From contig NZ_LN889803.1 of assembly GCF_900009145.1 (NCBI RefSeq), positions 267,894-331,893 of the forward strand: DNA of 64,000 nt, read 5' to 3'. This DNA comes from Planktothrix tepida PCC 9214. Its GTDB lineage: Bacteria; Cyanobacteriota; Cyanobacteriia; Cyanobacteriales; Microcoleaceae. The notes beneath the pieces were generated by a model. The model saw only the letters and a list, made by a program, of their open reading frames with translations, made no database searches and was not told the origin of the DNA. The translations under genes were made by a program, and so were the position numbers. This document shows positions 16,290 through 22,231 of the stretch, piece after piece (positions within the stretch are counted from its first letter, which is position 1; every line of letters starts with the position of its first letter).

Positions 16290-16582
16290 GGTTCAATCCT
16301 CGTAATTTTTCTGGATTTGTAGGTTTAAGTATTGCATATTTATTTGTTTTATGATTATCTTAAAATTTAATTAATTATTGTTAGATTTTTTTACAACTAT
16401 CTTCCCCTTTCTCTCAATCTTTATCCCCCAGCAATTATTAAAGAGTATTGATAGCTATAGCAATCCTAAATGTTGCAATATATCTTGCTTGACGCTTTTG
16501 GGTTAAGTTACTCACTTGTTTCTCTCCATTTATCCTGACTAAATGCACCGCTTGAAACATAGATATATAGAAAGTGCTGAAA

Positions 16583-17761
16583 TCATCTTAACATCAATTT
16601 TATGACTACTCGGGTGGGGCGGATTAAATAGTAGAGAAAAGATAGAGAAGTTGGCAACGGAAGGAACGCCCGATCTGTTTCGCTTGGAGCTATCCAAAGG
16701 TGGACGAGGTGGGCTAAGTAGGGAACTCGATCTTGAAAACGCTCTCTAACTTGAAAATAAAACCGTTTTTTTTCTCTGCCTCTAGTTGGGTTTTCGGCTT
16801 GACAGAACAGCCATTTACAGACTAAGGATACAAGGGATTTAACTATTTGCTCTGCTTGAACCCTCTTCAACACTTCTTCTGGAAGATTTGCTCCTAGAAG
16901 ATCGTGTGCTAAGAGAAGACCAAGGAAGAGCATTCGCAAACTATTCAACTGACTAGCCCGTTTTATAACCTGTTCCCAATTCATTTCCTGGTAAACCCGG
17001 ATCACTTCAGCAACATCACAAATCTGTACCAATCGTTCTCGGTCTTGCCAAGAATCCCTGGCGATGTTAATGCAGAGAATTAAGAGCAAGTCCTCTGGAG
17101 ACAAACTCAGTACGTTTATACCAGCAAGAGATACTGATTTAACACCTTTCCATAAGTCATCAAAATAGATTGAAACCGGAAAATCGTTCGGTGTGATTGC
17201 CTGGTGAAGATCTACACTAATCCTGCCATCGTGTGATATGAGATTACACTCCCAACCCCATTCATCATCTAGTCTATATCCCTGAGAAATCAGTAAGTCT
17301 TTAGCTGCCAGAACGTCTTGTTGGCGTACTAAGATATCTAGGTCGCAGAACTGTCGCAATGCCAAATTGCCGTAAGCGGAAGCGGCTAGAATAGCACCTT
17401 TAAAGGGGATGGAAGGAATTTCATGAGTTGCAAATAGTTCCAAAAGCCTGAGCAGTTCCCCAGTCAAAGTAAGACTCCACCCGGCGTTAGCCTCAAAACT
17501 AGCTCGTAGTTGAGCCAAAGTAGCCTTGGGAACTGCTTCTGGGCAGGTCGTATTAAGATTCCAGTATAGAAGTGGCATTAACCCCTGAAGATTTGCTGTC
17601 TGAATCAGATACTCCCAATCAATATTTTCGTGCAGCAAAATCTTGAGCCGTTCAGCATTTTTAGAGTCCATGCAAGTTCTAGCACAGCAAACCAAGATTT
17701 CGACTTCAGTACGAATATCTACTATTGGCAAATTAGCAGAGATGGAAGTTAAGCTTTTCAT
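16583..17761 (-). CDS. PF14907-type nucleotidyltransferase family protein
   Basis: A 392-residue protein with the core of the uncharacterised nucleotidyltransferase family common in modified-peptide clusters. IPFKGAILAASAYGN (about 116-130) is followed by the metal-binding pair in FCDLDILVRQQD (about 137-148), and DLHQAI is the likely third acidic site. An N-terminal helical region (LKILLHENIDWEYLIQTA) and a C-terminal helical region complete it. In lasso-peptide clusters, relatives act with an HPr-kinase-like enzyme to add phosphate groups to the precursor; here an HprK-like gene begins the same operon. It is the last gene, 28 bases after the MauE-fusion gene. The substrate here is unproven. 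Confidence 0.78.
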   Translation of the reverse strand: MKSLTSISANLPIVDIRTEVEILVCCARTCMDSKNAERLKILLHENIDWEYLIQTANLQGLMPLLYWNLNTTCPEAVPKATLAQLRASFEANAGWSLTLTGELLRLLELFATHEIPSIPFKGAILAASAYGNLALRQFCDLDILVRQQDVLAAKDLLISQGYRLDDEWGWECNLISHDGRISVDLHQAITPNDFPVSIYFDDLWKGVKSVSLAGINVLSLSPEDLLLILCINIARDSWQDRERLVQICDVAEVIRVYQEMNWEQVIKRASQLNSLRMLFLGLLLAHDLLGANLPEEVLKRVQAEQIVKSLVSLVCKWLFCQAENPTRGREKKRFYFQVRERFQDRVPYLAHLVHLWIAPSETDRAFLPLPTSLSFLYYLIRPTRVVIKLMLR

Positions 17762-17789
17762 AAAGCCCTCAGTTAGAACTTTTGGGGAT

Positions 17790-18713
17790 TCAAGATGAGA
17801 TGGGTTCTGTCTTCTTCAACAAAACTCTCTCATACATCTGTTTAATTCGGTCTAAATAAGCTTCAGGAAGTTCTCCAATCCATGTTTGAGTTATGACTCC
17901 ATCTTCAATTAAAATAGCAGTGGGATAGGCATCTGCCATATAACTAAATAAAAGTTTATCCATTGAAACTAGGGGAAAGCGCACCATCTGTTCATCTTTA
18001 AAGGCTTCTAATTCATCAGAGGGGAGAGACATAATTCCCAGAACTTGGGGTAAATCTTTTTGGGTATTCATCATATTGAGAAAAGGAACCCATCGTTTAC
18101 AGTAAGGGCAATCTTTGCTGAGGAATACAACAAAATGGGAACCCTGTTGTAAGTCGTTGGGGCTATCTTTTAACCAACGACGTTTCCAATGATTTCCAAG
18201 TTTTAGGCGAGAGAAGTCTACAAGAGGCTTCTGTCGAGATAGCCAACCGAGGGTGCTAGCGGATATTCCAACAATTAATGCAAGTATCCATTGCCAAGTT
18301 TCTGTATGGTGGTTGGGTACTGGATAAAACCATGCTATTGCTAGTAACAGAATATATCCTAAATTCAACAGGATACTTTGTTGGGGCGTGATGATTACAA
18401 GACCTCCATAGCAACCGCAATCTTCTGTTTTACCAGAGGAGGTAGACCAAAGAATTAACCCTGATGAACCGATTAAGAAAAGGATTGATATAGGAATAAG
18501 CCATTGGGGAAATTCATGGAGAATTAGAGCTAATCCTAATGCTGATTCTAAACCAATGAAGGTAGTCGCTACCTGGGGGACAATTAGGGTAGATAGCAAA
18601 CCATATTTGTAATTATGATAGATGAATTCTTTAGAATTTAGAGCTTTGGCAATTCCAGTTATTAAAAAAATTGCTCCTATAATTAATATCATCAAATAAT
18701 CAATTATTATCAT
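17790..18713 (-). CDS. MauE/DoxX-type membrane protein fused to thioredoxin-like domain
   Basis: A 307-residue fusion. The first about 160 residues form four to five membrane helices of the MauE/DoxX type, with a CGCYGG cysteine motif near 96-101 between helices. The C-terminal about 120 residues are thioredoxin-like: VVFLSKDCPYCKRWVPF carries a CPYC redox site near 199-202, and AYPTAILIEDG contains the cis-Pro. MauE helps methylamine dehydrogenase form its disulfides, so this protein plausibly passes disulfides to the cysteine-rich tails encoded just upstream. The CPYC domain follows the last predicted helix; topology would show which side it faces. It lies 12 bases after the upstream gene, so co-transcription is very likely. 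Confidence 0.8.
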   Translation of the reverse strand: MIIIDYLMILIIGAIFLITGIAKALNSKEFIYHNYKYGLLSTLIVPQVATTFIGLESALGLALILHEFPQWLIPISILFLIGSSGLILWSTSSGKTEDCGCYGGLVIITPQQSILLNLGYILLLAIAWFYPVPNHHTETWQWILALIVGISASTLGWLSRQKPLVDFSRLKLGNHWKRRWLKDSPNDLQQGSHFVVFLSKDCPYCKRWVPFLNMMNTQKDLPQVLGIMSLPSDELEAFKDEQMVRFPLVSMDKLLFSYMADAYPTAILIEDGVITQTWIGELPEAYLDRIKQMYERVLLKKTEPISS

Positions 18714-18725
18714 TATTTCTAATCC

Positions 18726-19307
18726 TTATCTTTGTTCACAAGCAAATTCACTTTCTCCAGGCTTACGATTAGTTCTGGAGGAGCAAAAAATATTTTTTTT
18801 AGCATTTTGACAACAACCATCACGTTTGGTTGGATTTGAACCTGGTATGCAATCTTTTCCTTCTTCTATACAAGGAGGCTTTGGAGGCCCAGCCGTTGAC
18901 CTGGCTCCCCCCGGATCTGGACTAGCAATTGATTTAACCCCAGGAAACATCGAACCGATCGCAAATCCCCCAACTAATGTAGCCGTCTTAATTGCTTTCC
19001 GACGTGAAATATTGGGTATAGCAATGGGTTCCTTCCGATACTCCTTAATCAGCTTATAACGCTCAAGCTCCTCTAAAGTTAACCAAACCAAACCTCGCAT
19101 ATCCACATCACTATCCGCCGGGAGATTAAACTCTTTTTCAAGTTTATGGGCTATATCATTGACCGTATTTTGACCATTTGATAATTCCCAAATTCTTACT
19201 GCCAGTGGCGTTAAACAATGGGAAGAATTATTATCTTGATCGTAAATGATCAATTCATTACCTATATCTTGCAGTAACAGATTTTCAGTTCTGGCAACAG
19301 GAATCAT
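18726..19307 (-). CDS. PqqD-domain protein with Tat segment and CC-containing six-Cys tail (copy A)
   Basis: In this 193-residue protein, residues 1-90 are a PqqD-like fold (peptide-recognition type): LLLQDIGNELIIYDQ, CLTPLAVRIWELSNGQ, then DMRGLVWLTLEELERYKLI. Residues 101-107 are SRRKAIK, a twin-arginine-like motif, before a hydrophobic run TATLVGGFAIGSMFPG. The tail (127-193) holds six Cys at 146, 153, 165, 166, 175 and 190, in order C-C-CC-C-C. That is the framework of inhibitor cystine-knot peptides, with gaps 6, 11, 0, 8 and 14. The N-terminal 90 residues differ at only five positions from copy B, while the tails are unrelated. Inferred role: an exported disulfide-rich peptide carrying its own recognition domain. 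The start follows GAAGGGAA. Confidence 0.75.
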   Translation of the reverse strand: MIPVARTENLLLQDIGNELIIYDQDNNSSHCLTPLAVRIWELSNGQNTVNDIAHKLEKEFNLPADSDVDMRGLVWLTLEELERYKLIKEYRKEPIAIPNISRRKAIKTATLVGGFAIGSMFPGVKSIASPDPGGARSTAGPPKPPCIEEGKDCIPGSNPTKRDGCCQNAKKNIFCSSRTNRKPGESEFACEQR

Positions 19308-19350
19308 AGTTTTTCCCTTCAGTATCTTTTTAAAGATGCTAACTTTAAAA

Positions 19351-19878
19351 TTAACAAACCGCTAGTTTACATCTCTTTCCACTGTCTGTTTGCTTGCAAA
19401 TCTCATTCGATGCACAATCTGAATCTTGGGTACATATCTTTCCACTATCCGCTAAACATTTAGATACTGCGAACGCAGGTTCAGGAGCAATAATTGACCT
19501 TACCATAGGAAACATAGAACCGAGCGCAAATCCTCCCACCAATGTAGCCGTCTTAATTGCCTTCCGACGTGACATCCCTGCAATTACATTTGTAGCAGGT
19601 TGTCGTAAATACTCTTTAATCAAGGAATAGCGTTCTAATTCTTCCAATGTCAGCCAAACCAAACCCCGCATATCCACATCACTATTCCCAGGCAGATTAA
19701 ACTCCTTTTCGAGTTTACGAGCTATATCATTAACTGTATTTTGACCATTTGATAATTCCCAGACTCTCACTGCCAGTGGCGTTAAACAATGGGAGGAATT
19801 ATTATCTTGATCGTAAATGATCAATTCATTACCTATATCTTGCAGCAACAGATTTTCAGTTCTGGCGACAGGTATCAT
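19351..19878 (-). CDS. PqqD-domain protein with Tat segment and six-Cys tail (copy B)
   Basis: I start at the ATG at 19878, preceded by GAGGAT, which gives the same MIPVARTENL as copy A. A TTG at 19923 would add 15 unlike residues. The protein has 175 residues: PqqD-like domain 1-90, SRRKAIK at 103-109, hydrophobic run to about 130, then PEPAFA, a good signal-peptidase I site at 137/138. The mature tail would be about 38 residues with Cys at 141, 149, 155, 161, 170 and 175 (gaps 7, 5, 5, 8, 4). It includes CTQDSDCASNEIC, a pattern seen in small disulfide-rich domains. The tail shares no obvious alignment with copy A. It is the second gene of the operon, 46 bases after the HprK-like gene. Confidence 0.75.
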   Translation of the reverse strand: MIPVARTENLLLQDIGNELIIYDQDNNSSHCLTPLAVRVWELSNGQNTVNDIARKLEKEFNLPGNSDVDMRGLVWLTLEELERYSLIKEYLRQPATNVIAGMSRRKAIKTATLVGGFALGSMFPMVRSIIAPEPAFAVSKCLADSGKICTQDSDCASNEICKQTDSGKRCKLAVC

Positions 19879-19924
19879 GGTTTTATCCTCGTTAATCAAT
19901 GAATTTTTTAAACTGATAGTCAAC

Positions 19925-20800
19925 TTAATCTTTTAAGTGTTGCAATAATGCGATCGCAACATCTTCTGCCTCATCTCGTTTCCCTTCAAAACATAAAGCA
20001 CTAGAAACAGCACTTGCCAAAATAGGAAGGGCAAAATCAGGACGAAGACTCGCAACAATTGTGTTATCTAATAGTGCCAATACCCCATGTCCTAAAGACA
20101 TTGGTTTTAAATTCCATTGCACTCCAGACTCATATTGAGCATGAACAATCAAACCCACTGGTAAAGGTTCTGTTCCTGCTGTACCCCCCAATTCTTCCAC
20201 CGAACACCGTTTGACTCGCTGCCCTTCTCCTCGCCGTATGGATAAACGTCTCGGATAGGGATGAACCCGTCCATCAGTATCCAATACCGCATACTCATCC
20301 GAGTAATAGGTTGCTCCAGCGTTAACTAACGCCTTTACCAGAGTTGTTTTGCCACTAAAACTGCGCCCCGGAATGAGAATTGCTTTCCCCCGCCAACCCA
20401 CAACACCCGCATGGACAAATAGCCAATCTTGTACGGCAATGCCAACCTGCAAGCGCAAGTCAGAGTCCAACGTCTCGAAAATAGTTTCAAGCTCTATACT
20501 TTCGGTAAGTTTGTCTTGCCCTCGATAGATCTGGTGATCAATGTAACCACTAGAACCTTTGCCAACTTCACCAACAATTAGCGAGTACAACTCATCAACT
20601 GGTGATGATGATTTCTCCCACCCAGGCGGCAGGTAATCCAAAAGCGGTTCCAAAATAGTGGGTTCGTTGACACGGATACCAATGTGAACACCATAGCTGA
20701 CGAGAGAAATTCCAGCTTTCCAACTGATTTCGTCAAGTTCAGGGTAAAAGGGTACGCATTCAGTTTGTTGTTTTAATAGAGGCAAAGTAGAAGTCTGCAT
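19925..20800 (-). CDS. HPr-kinase-related protein (HprK-like)
   Basis: In this 291-residue protein, the C-terminal half has an HprK-type P-loop, LIPGRSFSGKTTLVKAL (143-159). YYSDEYAVLD (165-174) follows, in the place of the DDxV acidic motif. FVHAGVVGWRGKAIL precedes the P-loop as in HprK-related kinases. The N-terminal half lacks the canonical HprK N-domain. Relatives occur with PqqD-family proteins and nucleotidyltransferases, and in lasso-peptide clusters such a kinase phosphorylates the precursor's C-terminus. It is the first gene of the five-gene operon. The expected substrate is one of the two PqqD-headed proteins next to it (inference). Confidence 0.8.
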   Translation of the reverse strand: MQTSTLPLLKQQTECVPFYPELDEISWKAGISLVSYGVHIGIRVNEPTILEPLLDYLPPGWEKSSSPVDELYSLIVGEVGKGSSGYIDHQIYRGQDKLTESIELETIFETLDSDLRLQVGIAVQDWLFVHAGVVGWRGKAILIPGRSFSGKTTLVKALVNAGATYYSDEYAVLDTDGRVHPYPRRLSIRRGEGQRVKRCSVEELGGTAGTEPLPVGLIVHAQYESGVQWNLKPMSLGHGVLALLDNTIVASLRPDFALPILASAVSSALCFEGKRDEAEDVAIALLQHLKD

Positions 20801-21391
20801 TGCAGCTTGTCCAAGTTTTCAAAGCTAAAGTTTTTCCTTGAACTAAACGGATAAAATTTCGGGTTTGGCACTATTCCTTTGCACCCCAACTGATAAAGTC
20901 AGACCAAATTGGATTTTTGATGTCTGACTAGAATAGCGATGTTATGCCAATAGACTTACGCAAAAACCCGATTTCTGAACATTACATCAAGCTCTTAGCT
21001 TAAAGCCAAGACGAGAAACCAGGTTTTTTAACCCTCCGGTGTGTAAGTTGTAACTCAAATCTTTAATGCTGCAATTATAAAGTGGATGAAAAAAAATACA
21101 ATCGGTTTGTCTCCATCTTTACTAAATCTTTACTTTTTACAGAATTTATTGGTCTTGTTTCCACATCCTAGAAACTCTTAAGCATATTTGCTGATGCCCT
21201 TGAAGCCTTTCGCACCGCGATTTCTTTTGGATTTGTGGAGTGGCTCCAGTATGCGGAGGGATGTATTTGTAGCCTACAGACAGTTTAGGCTTGATTCGGG
21301 CTTAATCTTTGTTTTAAGTCCTATTAAAACCGAGTATATTTAATAAAGTAGTTTGAGCAAAAATTTAATGAAAAGGAGGAAACAATCTCTA
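20801..21391. promoter_or_regulatory. Divergent control region with two inverted repeats
   Basis: This 590-base gap separates the minus-strand HprK-like operon from the plus-strand oxygenase. AGTCAGAC (20897-20904) pairs with GTCTGACT (20922-20929). AAAAACCCGATTTCT (20962-20976) pairs with AGAAACCAGGTTTTT (21014-21028), matching 13 of 15, and this second form resembles intergenic repeats of filamentous cyanobacteria. Promoters for both transcripts must lie here, but I cannot place -10 boxes with confidence. Confidence 0.5.
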
Positions 21392-22231
21392 ATGTTATTC
21401 AATTCAGAATATAATATACAATTTGATGAGATTTTTAGTCAAGCTTTAGATTTGGTAAATTCTAGCCTTAATCAACCTGAAATTCCCTACAATGAAAGGC
21501 TGAACGCAGCCTTAAAAGTATTAGAGATCGGAATATTATCATCACAACAAAAGCAGTTGAATTCATTGTTACCCGAAGTTATCCCATCTTCAGATATTTC
21601 TCCTGATCCTTTCTTGCAGCATCAAGAAACAGAAGCCATTATTTTAAATCCCGATTATGTACAACTGGATAACTTTCTCTCAGAGGAAGATTATCAGAAA
21701 CTTTTAAAGATGACTTTAGCTAATCAAGATAAATTTTTTCCTTCAGAAGTGATAAATGATCAGTCAAAATATCGGGAATCTTATATTTTACTTCCTCAAC
21801 ACTTTGTCGAGTTCCATGAACTTCTGACTCATCAGATTCTCTCTGCTAGACCCAATGTTATGCAGCAATTACAAATGTCGATGTTTTTAGTGTCCCATTT
21901 AGAAATGCAAATCACGGCGCATTTACATGGGGGATATTATAAAATTCATCAAGATGTGGATGCCGGAAAAGCTGCCAATCGAAGATTAACCTATGTTTAT
22001 TATTTTTATCAAGAACCTAAACCTTTTTATGGAGGAGACTTAAGATTATATGAAACTAAAATTCAAGACAATCAATCTCTAATTCAAGAAAGATTTAATC
22101 AAATTGAACCGCGTAATAATAGTATTATCTTTTTTGATAGTCGTTGTAAGCATGAAGTTTTACCTGTTTATTGTCCCTCTCAACAATTTACGGATGGTCG
22201 ATTTACAATTAATGGTTGGATTCATGGTTGA
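21392..22231 (+). CDS. 2OG-Fe(II) oxygenase, prolyl-4-hydroxylase-like
   Basis: The start at ATG 21392 is favoured by AAAGGAGGA (21372-21380), spaced about 11 bases; upstream in-frame ATG 21368 and TTG 21353 are alternatives. The 279-residue protein has an N-terminal helical region and a C-terminal double-stranded beta-helix. The iron site is H-x-D in YKIHQDVD plus the distal His in DSRCKHEVLPV. The 2-oxoglutarate-binding Arg is in DGRFTINGW. Strands YVYYFYQEP and FYGGDLRLYE are typical of P4H-like enzymes. It probably hydroxylates a peptide or small molecule. It faces away from the HprK/PqqD operon, so a role as a tailoring enzyme there is possible but unproven. Confidence 0.82.
   Translation: MLFNSEYNIQFDEIFSQALDLVNSSLNQPEIPYNERLNAALKVLEIGILSSQQKQLNSLLPEVIPSSDISPDPFLQHQETEAIILNPDYVQLDNFLSEEDYQKLLKMTLANQDKFFPSEVINDQSKYRESYILLPQHFVEFHELLTHQILSARPNVMQQLQMSMFLVSHLEMQITAHLHGGYYKIHQDVDAGKAANRRLTYVYYFYQEPKPFYGGDLRLYETKIQDNQSLIQERFNQIEPRNNSIIFFDSRCKHEVLPVYCPSQQFTDGRFTINGWIHG

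Follow-up and report, generated by a model that had tools for sequence, protein, structure and literature searches.

A Five-Gene Cassette of Planktothrix tepida PCC 9214 with PqqD-Headed Precursors and Predicted Tat-Exported Peptides

What could a cyanobacterium make from a protein that joins a peptide-recognition domain, an export signal and a Cys-rich tail in one chain? This question is raised by five minus-strand genes lying between lpxC and a 2-oxoglutarate (2OG) oxygenase gene of Planktothrix tepida PCC 9214, in a 64,000-nucleotide stretch of NZ_LN889803.1 (the window; genome label G000), whose numbering is used for all positions. The cassette encodes an HprK-like kinase, two precursors (A1 and A2), a MauE–thioredoxin fusion (MauE-Trx) and a PF14907 nucleotidyltransferase-like protein, and it would, with fair though incomplete confidence, make two secreted peptides resembling ribosomally synthesized and post-translationally modified peptides (RiPPs) by a "modify, then export" route. 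The head of each precursor is a PqqD-type RiPP recognition element (RRE), followed by a segment resembling a twin-arginine translocation (Tat) signal. The intergenic gaps are 46, 43, 12 and 28 bases, the first depending on the A1 start at ATG 19878 (MIPV, the start of homologues at the same point). The features are as follows (aa, amino acids).

19925..20800, minus strand: HprK-like kinase, 291 aa, with H130, K151, D168 and D174 conserved
19351..19878, minus strand: precursor A1, 175 aa, with PqqD/RRE head, Tat-like segment and six-Cys tail
19603..19860, minus strand: A1 PqqD/RRE head, residues 7-92
19468..19572, minus strand: A1 twin-arginine signal, SRRKAIK ... PEPAFA, residues 103-137, with the SRR and P-x-P-[AV]-x-A patterns
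19354..19467, minus strand: predicted mature tail of A1 (38 aa) with six Cys; Ser 2 of the tail, at 19462-19464, is conserved
18726..19307, minus strand: precursor A2, 193 aa, with a head of the A1 kind and a different tail
18903..19007, minus strand: A2 twin-arginine signal, SRRKAIK ... PDPGGA, with a non-canonical cleavage site and the boundary set by hand
18729..18902, minus strand: predicted mature tail of A2 (58 aa), its six Cys ordered C-C-CC-C-C; residue 2 of the tail, at 18897-18899, is Ser
17790..18713, minus strand: MauE-Trx, 307 aa, with a CGCYGG loop and CPYC
16583..17761, minus strand: nucleotidyltransferase-like protein of PF14907, 392 aa, with the DLD motif kept

Precursor head, export signal and linked enzymes

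There is good support for the anatomy of the cassette, for the conservation of the gene set and for the fold assigned to head and kinase. An earlier note on this DNA had described five open reading frames (ORFs) of this location, strand and spacing, which were reproduced together with the gaps, and it had placed recognition domain, export signal and product in that order in one chain, which the precursors support; the six-Cys tails that it reported contain exactly six Cys in A1 and in A2. Its assignments of the last two genes were likewise confirmed, with 60 bits for the fusion against Pfam MauE (PF07291, gathering cut-off 27) and 223.5 bits for the other protein against PF14907 (NTP_transf_5, gathering cut-off 31.2). 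The note had also called the head PqqD-like and had allowed for its scoring as another fold; this was checked and did not occur. Against Pfam PqqD, A1 scores 21.8 bits, slightly below the cut-off of 23.4, and A2 scores 25.1 bits, while TIGR04353 (PqqD_rel_X) was the first or second match of the heads in most scans, at 21.5 and 24.5 bits for A1/A2 and 31.2 bits for the related genome G600 (curated cut-off 35). Profile comparison of the head matched PqqD proteins, and the head profile matched PqqD 5sxy among solved structures (E 0.024). The predicted head structure shows three strands followed by three helices in the winged-helix order of an RRE, and leader-bound lasso B1 proteins were its top three fold matches; the fold matches of head and kinase come from a VIA-align second look, in which folds missed by Foldseek cannot appear. 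The modelled head is thus well supported as an RRE fold. In addition, the heads are under purifying selection, the ratio of nonsynonymous to synonymous substitution rates being about 0.14, 0.03 and 0.08 in three pairs.

The PqqD head might instead be a winged-helix regulatory or signalling domain on an ordinary Tat substrate, with the linked enzymes acting elsewhere, e.g., on a surface glycan. The B1 proteins as top fold matches, the match of the head profile to PqqD proteins and an enzyme content that varies with tail type all argue against such a role, which is considered decidedly improbable. In the favored "modify, then export" route, the head of each precursor would serve as its own RRE, with the modifying enzymes docking on the substrate chain in cis. 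The kinase would phosphorylate a tail Ser/Thr, the PF14907 protein would then add a sugar or nucleotide at the phosphorylated residue, as PsmN reportedly does on a lasso peptide, and MauE-Trx, probably acting from the cytosolic side, would drive oxidation of the six Cys. Once folded and modified, the tail would cross via Tat, and signal peptidase would free it while head and signal remain behind.

The kinase, named HprK-like in the earlier note, has no Pfam match over the cut-off (best AAA_29, 18 versus 27), and its predicted structure has the HprK/PEPCK fold with the His-Lys-Asp-Asp residues of lasso-type kinases, a motif of this type being described for lasso kinases in PMC9266682. Its best match is TIGR04352 (HprK_rel_A; E=3.6e-14). 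In comparison with solved-structure sequences, the kinase profile found no related structure among four matches, the best of which (E 0.012) was a designed binder. The note had further taken kinase and nucleotidyltransferase of lasso clusters to phosphorylate the precursor; this stands for the kinase and fails for PsmN, which according to a review does not phosphorylate but attaches hexoses to phospho-Ser, with nucleotidylation as a possible preceding step.

For the export signal, 17 precursors were aligned on the P-x-P-x-x-A site, with the boundaries of window A2 and of A2 in the sister genome G245 (G245_A2) set by hand. SRR is present in 17/17 precursors and the P-x-P-[AV]-x-A site in all except these two (15/17). 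The features of a Tat substrate, namely twin-arginine motif, hydrophobic stretch and signal peptidase site, were found by eye and pattern according to the Tat signal consensus, and TatC is encoded in the P. tepida genome. The segment after SRR could alternatively be a membrane anchor, leaving the head cytosolic and the tail tethered and displayed outside or in the lumen. By eye the hydrophobic stretch could be long enough to span the membrane, and the two exceptions lack the canonical site; however, the site is kept in the other 15 precursors and sequence conservation stops right after it, and an anchor is therefore regarded as unlikely.

Directly beyond this site, position +2 is Ser in 13/13 precursors outside the Nostoc-type clade, while +1 is occupied by seven different residues and Ser makes up 9.1% of cyanobacterial tails; Ser is also at +2 in a broken copy in genome G601, which is outside this count. 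All precursors of the Nostoc-type clade (4/4) have Pro at +2 and Ser at +5. The Ser at mature position 2 is proposed as the most likely kinase target. Instead of decorating the product, the kinase and PF14907 protein might also mark the signal region or the head as a quality control on export, and it agrees with this that the sole conserved tail residue stands two residues past the predicted cleavage site with the remaining tail free to vary. Relatives' extra modifying domains (PF11397, JmjC/Cupin_8, FkbM and, under the cut-off, O-FucT-like), however, differ between clusters with different tails, and export gating is considered quite unlikely.

Recurrence of the cassette and matching of tails to enzymes

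A grouping of the five genes by chance is very unlikely, since the same set is also present in other genera and in a second phylum. A single-sequence search of the order with the precursor matched 8/291 genomes at E 1e-3, four of them strongly (G000, G245, G201 and G266), and precursor profiles on the phylum matched 6/386 and 4/386 genomes, strongly only in G000, G201 and the additional G557; the weaker phylum-profile matches look like stand-alone PqqD or chance. The kinase profile found 12/388 genomes of the order, nine at E below 1e-60, adding G600, G608, G599 and the broken G601, and of 65 candidate stretches from a pattern scan of named genomes, three were confirmed (Richelia sinica FACHB-800, identical with G201; Nostoc spongiaeforme FACHB-130; and Nostoc sp. 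CHAB 5844). A plasmid of Gemmatirosa kalamazoonensis (Gemmatimonadota) carries the cassette with the PF14907 gene on the opposite strand; in the plasmid collection one record had the kinase or precursor, and the Gemmatirosa kinase as a query matched only itself. With a complete cluster defined as the kinase, one or two precursors and the PF14907 protein, the total is 11 complete clusters, that of G599 at a contig end, and the broken one. In the latter (L050:6468-10434), transposon-like ORFs (by eye) lie inside, and a Pro/Thr-rich tail leads into a longer stretch. Either the system is rare or the searches were narrow. The earlier note had asked for conservation of the set in related genomes, which was found, and its co-occurrence of kinase, PqqD and PF14907 protein was likewise supported; its Cys-rich tail applies to A1/A2 and not as a family rule, some relatives having Cys-free tails.

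Tails are replaced while heads are conserved. In the six genomes with two precursors, within-genome identity is 83-100% for heads and 15-51% for tails. The window and G245 share about 95% DNA identity over the cassette; only the two tails, the spacers following them and a short A2 linker depart from this; between G600 and G608 identity also breaks at the tail, G608 lacks one whole precursor and a further spacer differs. The tail type is matched by the enzymes. Tails with 4 to 12 Cys each occur in seven clusters (window, G245, Richelia, G266, G600, G608 and Gemmatirosa), and MauE-Trx is the next gene after the precursors in 7/7 of them, compared with 0/4 loci with Cys-free tails (G557 and the two Nostoc, whose tails are 48-75% Ser+Thr, and G599, whose tail is short and charged). 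A whole-genome MauE-Trx profile search of 13 genomes, which left aside the two Nostoc genomes, was positive in 6/6 Cys-tail genomes and in 0/7 others (G599, G557, G601, G089, G105 and two cassette-free sisters). The association of tail type with MauE-Trx gives a Fisher p of 0.003 for 11 clusters and 0.048 for seven lineages of our own grouping. The C-C-CC-C-C order expected of an inhibitor cystine knot (knottin), at most a tentative reading here, occurs in 5/11 cyanobacterial Cys tails, one of which has 12 Cys and shows it in the first six. G600_A2 weakly matches Pfam Toxin_7 (E 0.0087, under the cut-off), and against PDB the best match of the G245_A2 tail is weak (E 0.64) and the window A2 tail has none.

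CGCY and CxxC are kept in 8/8 aligned MauE-Trx proteins, whose membrane segments were placed from the hydropathy of the window protein. The thioredoxin part is predicted by the positive-inside rule to be cytosolic because the linker before it has 5-8 Lys/Arg, with 0-1 in the opposite-face loops of 7/8 proteins; the eighth (G245) has 4 Lys/Arg on the opposite face, within an N-terminal extension of uncertain start. With MauE-Trx predicted to face the cytosol, disulfides may therefore form before export, and oxidation of the tail Cys ahead of Tat passage would fit this topology.

Thr-rich tails have a different partner. In 3/3 Nostoc-type clusters (G557 and two Nostoc) they accompany a PF11397-PF14907 fusion, with genes for an epimerase and a 2OG oxygenase alongside; PF11397, the domain of glycosyltransferase family 60 (GT60), scores 210.6 bits in G557 and is deduced in the two Nostoc from 73-96% identity. 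The PF14907 domains of these fusions have lost the first Asp of DxD, which those of G089 and G105 keep. Moreover, G266 has MauE-Trx fused to a Cupin_8/JmjC-type domain and PF14907 fused to an O-FucT-like domain (PF10250, under the cut-off), and Richelia has PF14907 fused to an FkbM methyltransferase. The idea that GT60 generally goes with Thr-rich tails was rejected, because stand-alone PF11397-type loci are without such tails: among ORFs of at least 60 aa in the 2.6-4.1 kb examined, no Thr/Ser-rich C-terminus was seen at 12 cyanobacterial loci (L057-L068) or at the Planktothrix loci L074 and L076, the window's own genome included. Among PF11397 genes, only the fusions with PF14907 are linked to such tails; at the G218 fusion (L056, contig edge) no precursor was seen.

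Several points weigh against the proposed route. The precursor model has low confidence overall (mean predicted local distance difference test score 49.2; ten-residue head blocks 41-78), and the RRE head may bind a partner other than an enzyme. The cleavage site of A2 is non-canonical, and Ser at +2 could reflect a signal peptidase preference rather than a kinase target; lasso kinases act on a C-terminal Ser, which 16/17 precursors lack. In addition, few lineages underlie the match between tails and enzymes: two label changes are needed on the kinase tree, in which 3/8 inner forks are unresolved, and 41/500 shuffles equal this for the Cys group. Finally, no Cys-rich exported peptide was recognised alongside the second MauE-Trx in G600 or in G608.

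Comparison with known systems

The lasso clusters of paeninodin (PadeK) and pseudomycoidin (PsmK/PsmN) are similar in having a PqqD-type RRE (B1), an HPr-kinase-like enzyme with His-Lys-Asp-Asp and a nucleotidyltransferase-like protein, and also a conserved Ser target (PMC9266682); in the cassette the target is a proposal. The cassette differs in its fusion of RRE to substrate, its Tat-like signal and its Cys-/Thr-rich tails, and its Ser lies near the N end of the product rather than at the C end. No asparagine-synthetase-like cyclase or B2 leader peptidase was found among the five proteins (Pfam, NCBIfam), and none was recognised by homology and by eye among the unscanned neighbours. TIGR04352/TIGR04353 systems, the latter family being described as PqqD family peptide chaperone, share the best match of the kinase and the first or second match of the heads, but all scores are below the curated cut-offs (52.5 of 200 bits and 21.5-31.2 of 35).

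In methylamine dehydrogenase maturation, MauE and MauD serve a Cys-rich exported substrate. The cassette likewise has MauE and a thioredoxin-type domain beside such a substrate, but as a single fused protein with a predicted cytosolic thioredoxin, and no dehydrogenase genes were seen. A disulfide role of MauE/MauD is given as speculation in PMC7794033. On the pLBY plasmid locus of Leptolyngbya boryana (L117:6660-8900), an 81-aa six-Cys peptide with a double-Gly-like leader (by eye) lies near MauE-Trx and two peptidase-domain ATP-binding cassette (ABC) exporters; this locus resembles the cassette in its MauE-Trx beside a six-Cys peptide and differs in the exporters and in a peptide without PqqD head. 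Because of this copy, MauE-Trx may also be paired with Cys-rich peptides exported by another route; the second copies in G600 and G608 count against this. The DUF2282/DUF2063 RiPPs, as presented in PMC12710340, have a precursor with an export signal as well, but use Sec, not Tat, and carry the RRE on a separate protein. Trypanosoma cruzi GT60 enzymes make GlcNAc-alpha-Thr on mucin-like proteins (PMC9472816), a likeness confined to the Nostoc-type relatives with their PF11397 domain and Thr-rich acceptor; there the enzyme is bacterial, predicted cytosolic and fused to PF14907, with a putative activity, and the window cassette is without PF11397. A literature search gave no PqqD-headed Tat precursor among the matches listed, judged by title and start of abstract, which is not proof of absence.

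Tentatively, and with less confidence than not, the clusters might form a new RiPP class with a precursor-borne recognition element, a Tat-exported core and swappable core chemistries (knottin-like disulfide with MauE-Trx; mucin-like Thr-rich glycopeptides by the GT60-PF14907 fusion), sharing a phospho-sugar modification of a Ser close to the N-terminus of the mature peptide and including a bacterial counterpart of mucin-type O-glycosylation. If true, RiPP recognition, Tat export and the folding of disulfide-rich or glycosylated peptides, which are usually separate, would be joined. A self-docking leader with a natural signal peptide would be a possible chassis for producing such peptides in bacteria, one named target residue makes a testable prediction for HprK-related kinases and PF14907, both poorly understood families, and the matched tail/enzyme swaps would be a natural experiment on how modification enzymes find substrates.

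Genomic setting and related loci

The interval between lpxC and the 2OG oxygenase gene (window 16290-21352) is a swappable cargo site in the genus. It holds the cassette in 2/10 genomes; in seven of the other eight it holds an AAA ATPase and partner (six genomes, alike by eye) or is empty (one), G648 being outside the comparison. A PADLOC scan of one AAA/partner pair (G075) gave matches to candidate defence models of HEC-01 type, and the cargo site would fit a conflict-related product. A peptide role in competition or signalling is suggested by the hypervariable tails, the paired paralogues and the cargo site.

The 2OG-Fe(II) oxygenase (21353-22231, plus strand; PF13640, 68.6 bits) was first suggested as a system member by a homologue (44% over 195 aa) inside the Nostoc-type operons. 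In the window it is treated as a bystander, because the gene is present in 10/10 genus genomes and lies in the same lpxC neighbourhood in the seven cassette-free relatives compared.

A second locus in the same genome (G000:C46, L118:7255-15607, minus strand) has PqqD-like, weakly HprK-like, two PF14907 and three glycosyltransferase-like (by eye) genes, with no precursor recognised there. A second Richelia locus (L030:7209-14548), probably for a lasso peptide, combines a PqqD-like gene with genes resembling asparagine synthetase (by eye) and PF14907. The Gemmatirosa precursor (L115:9801-10337) also scores weakly, at 25.6 bits of 50, against TIGR04117 (Cxxx repeat radical SAM target), a hint that there are other peptide precursors with RR. 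Finally, G089 and G105 (L051:5918-10157 and L052:5247-9729) carry a precursor with an RR segment and a poly-Thr tail, accompanied by a kinase-like gene, a separate PqqD protein and a PF11397-PF14907 fusion. The precursor head is not PqqD, KilA-N being over the cut-off in G089 and the G105 homologue (46% identical) having no Pfam match; with the RRE in trans there and in cis in the window, this is a parallel design.

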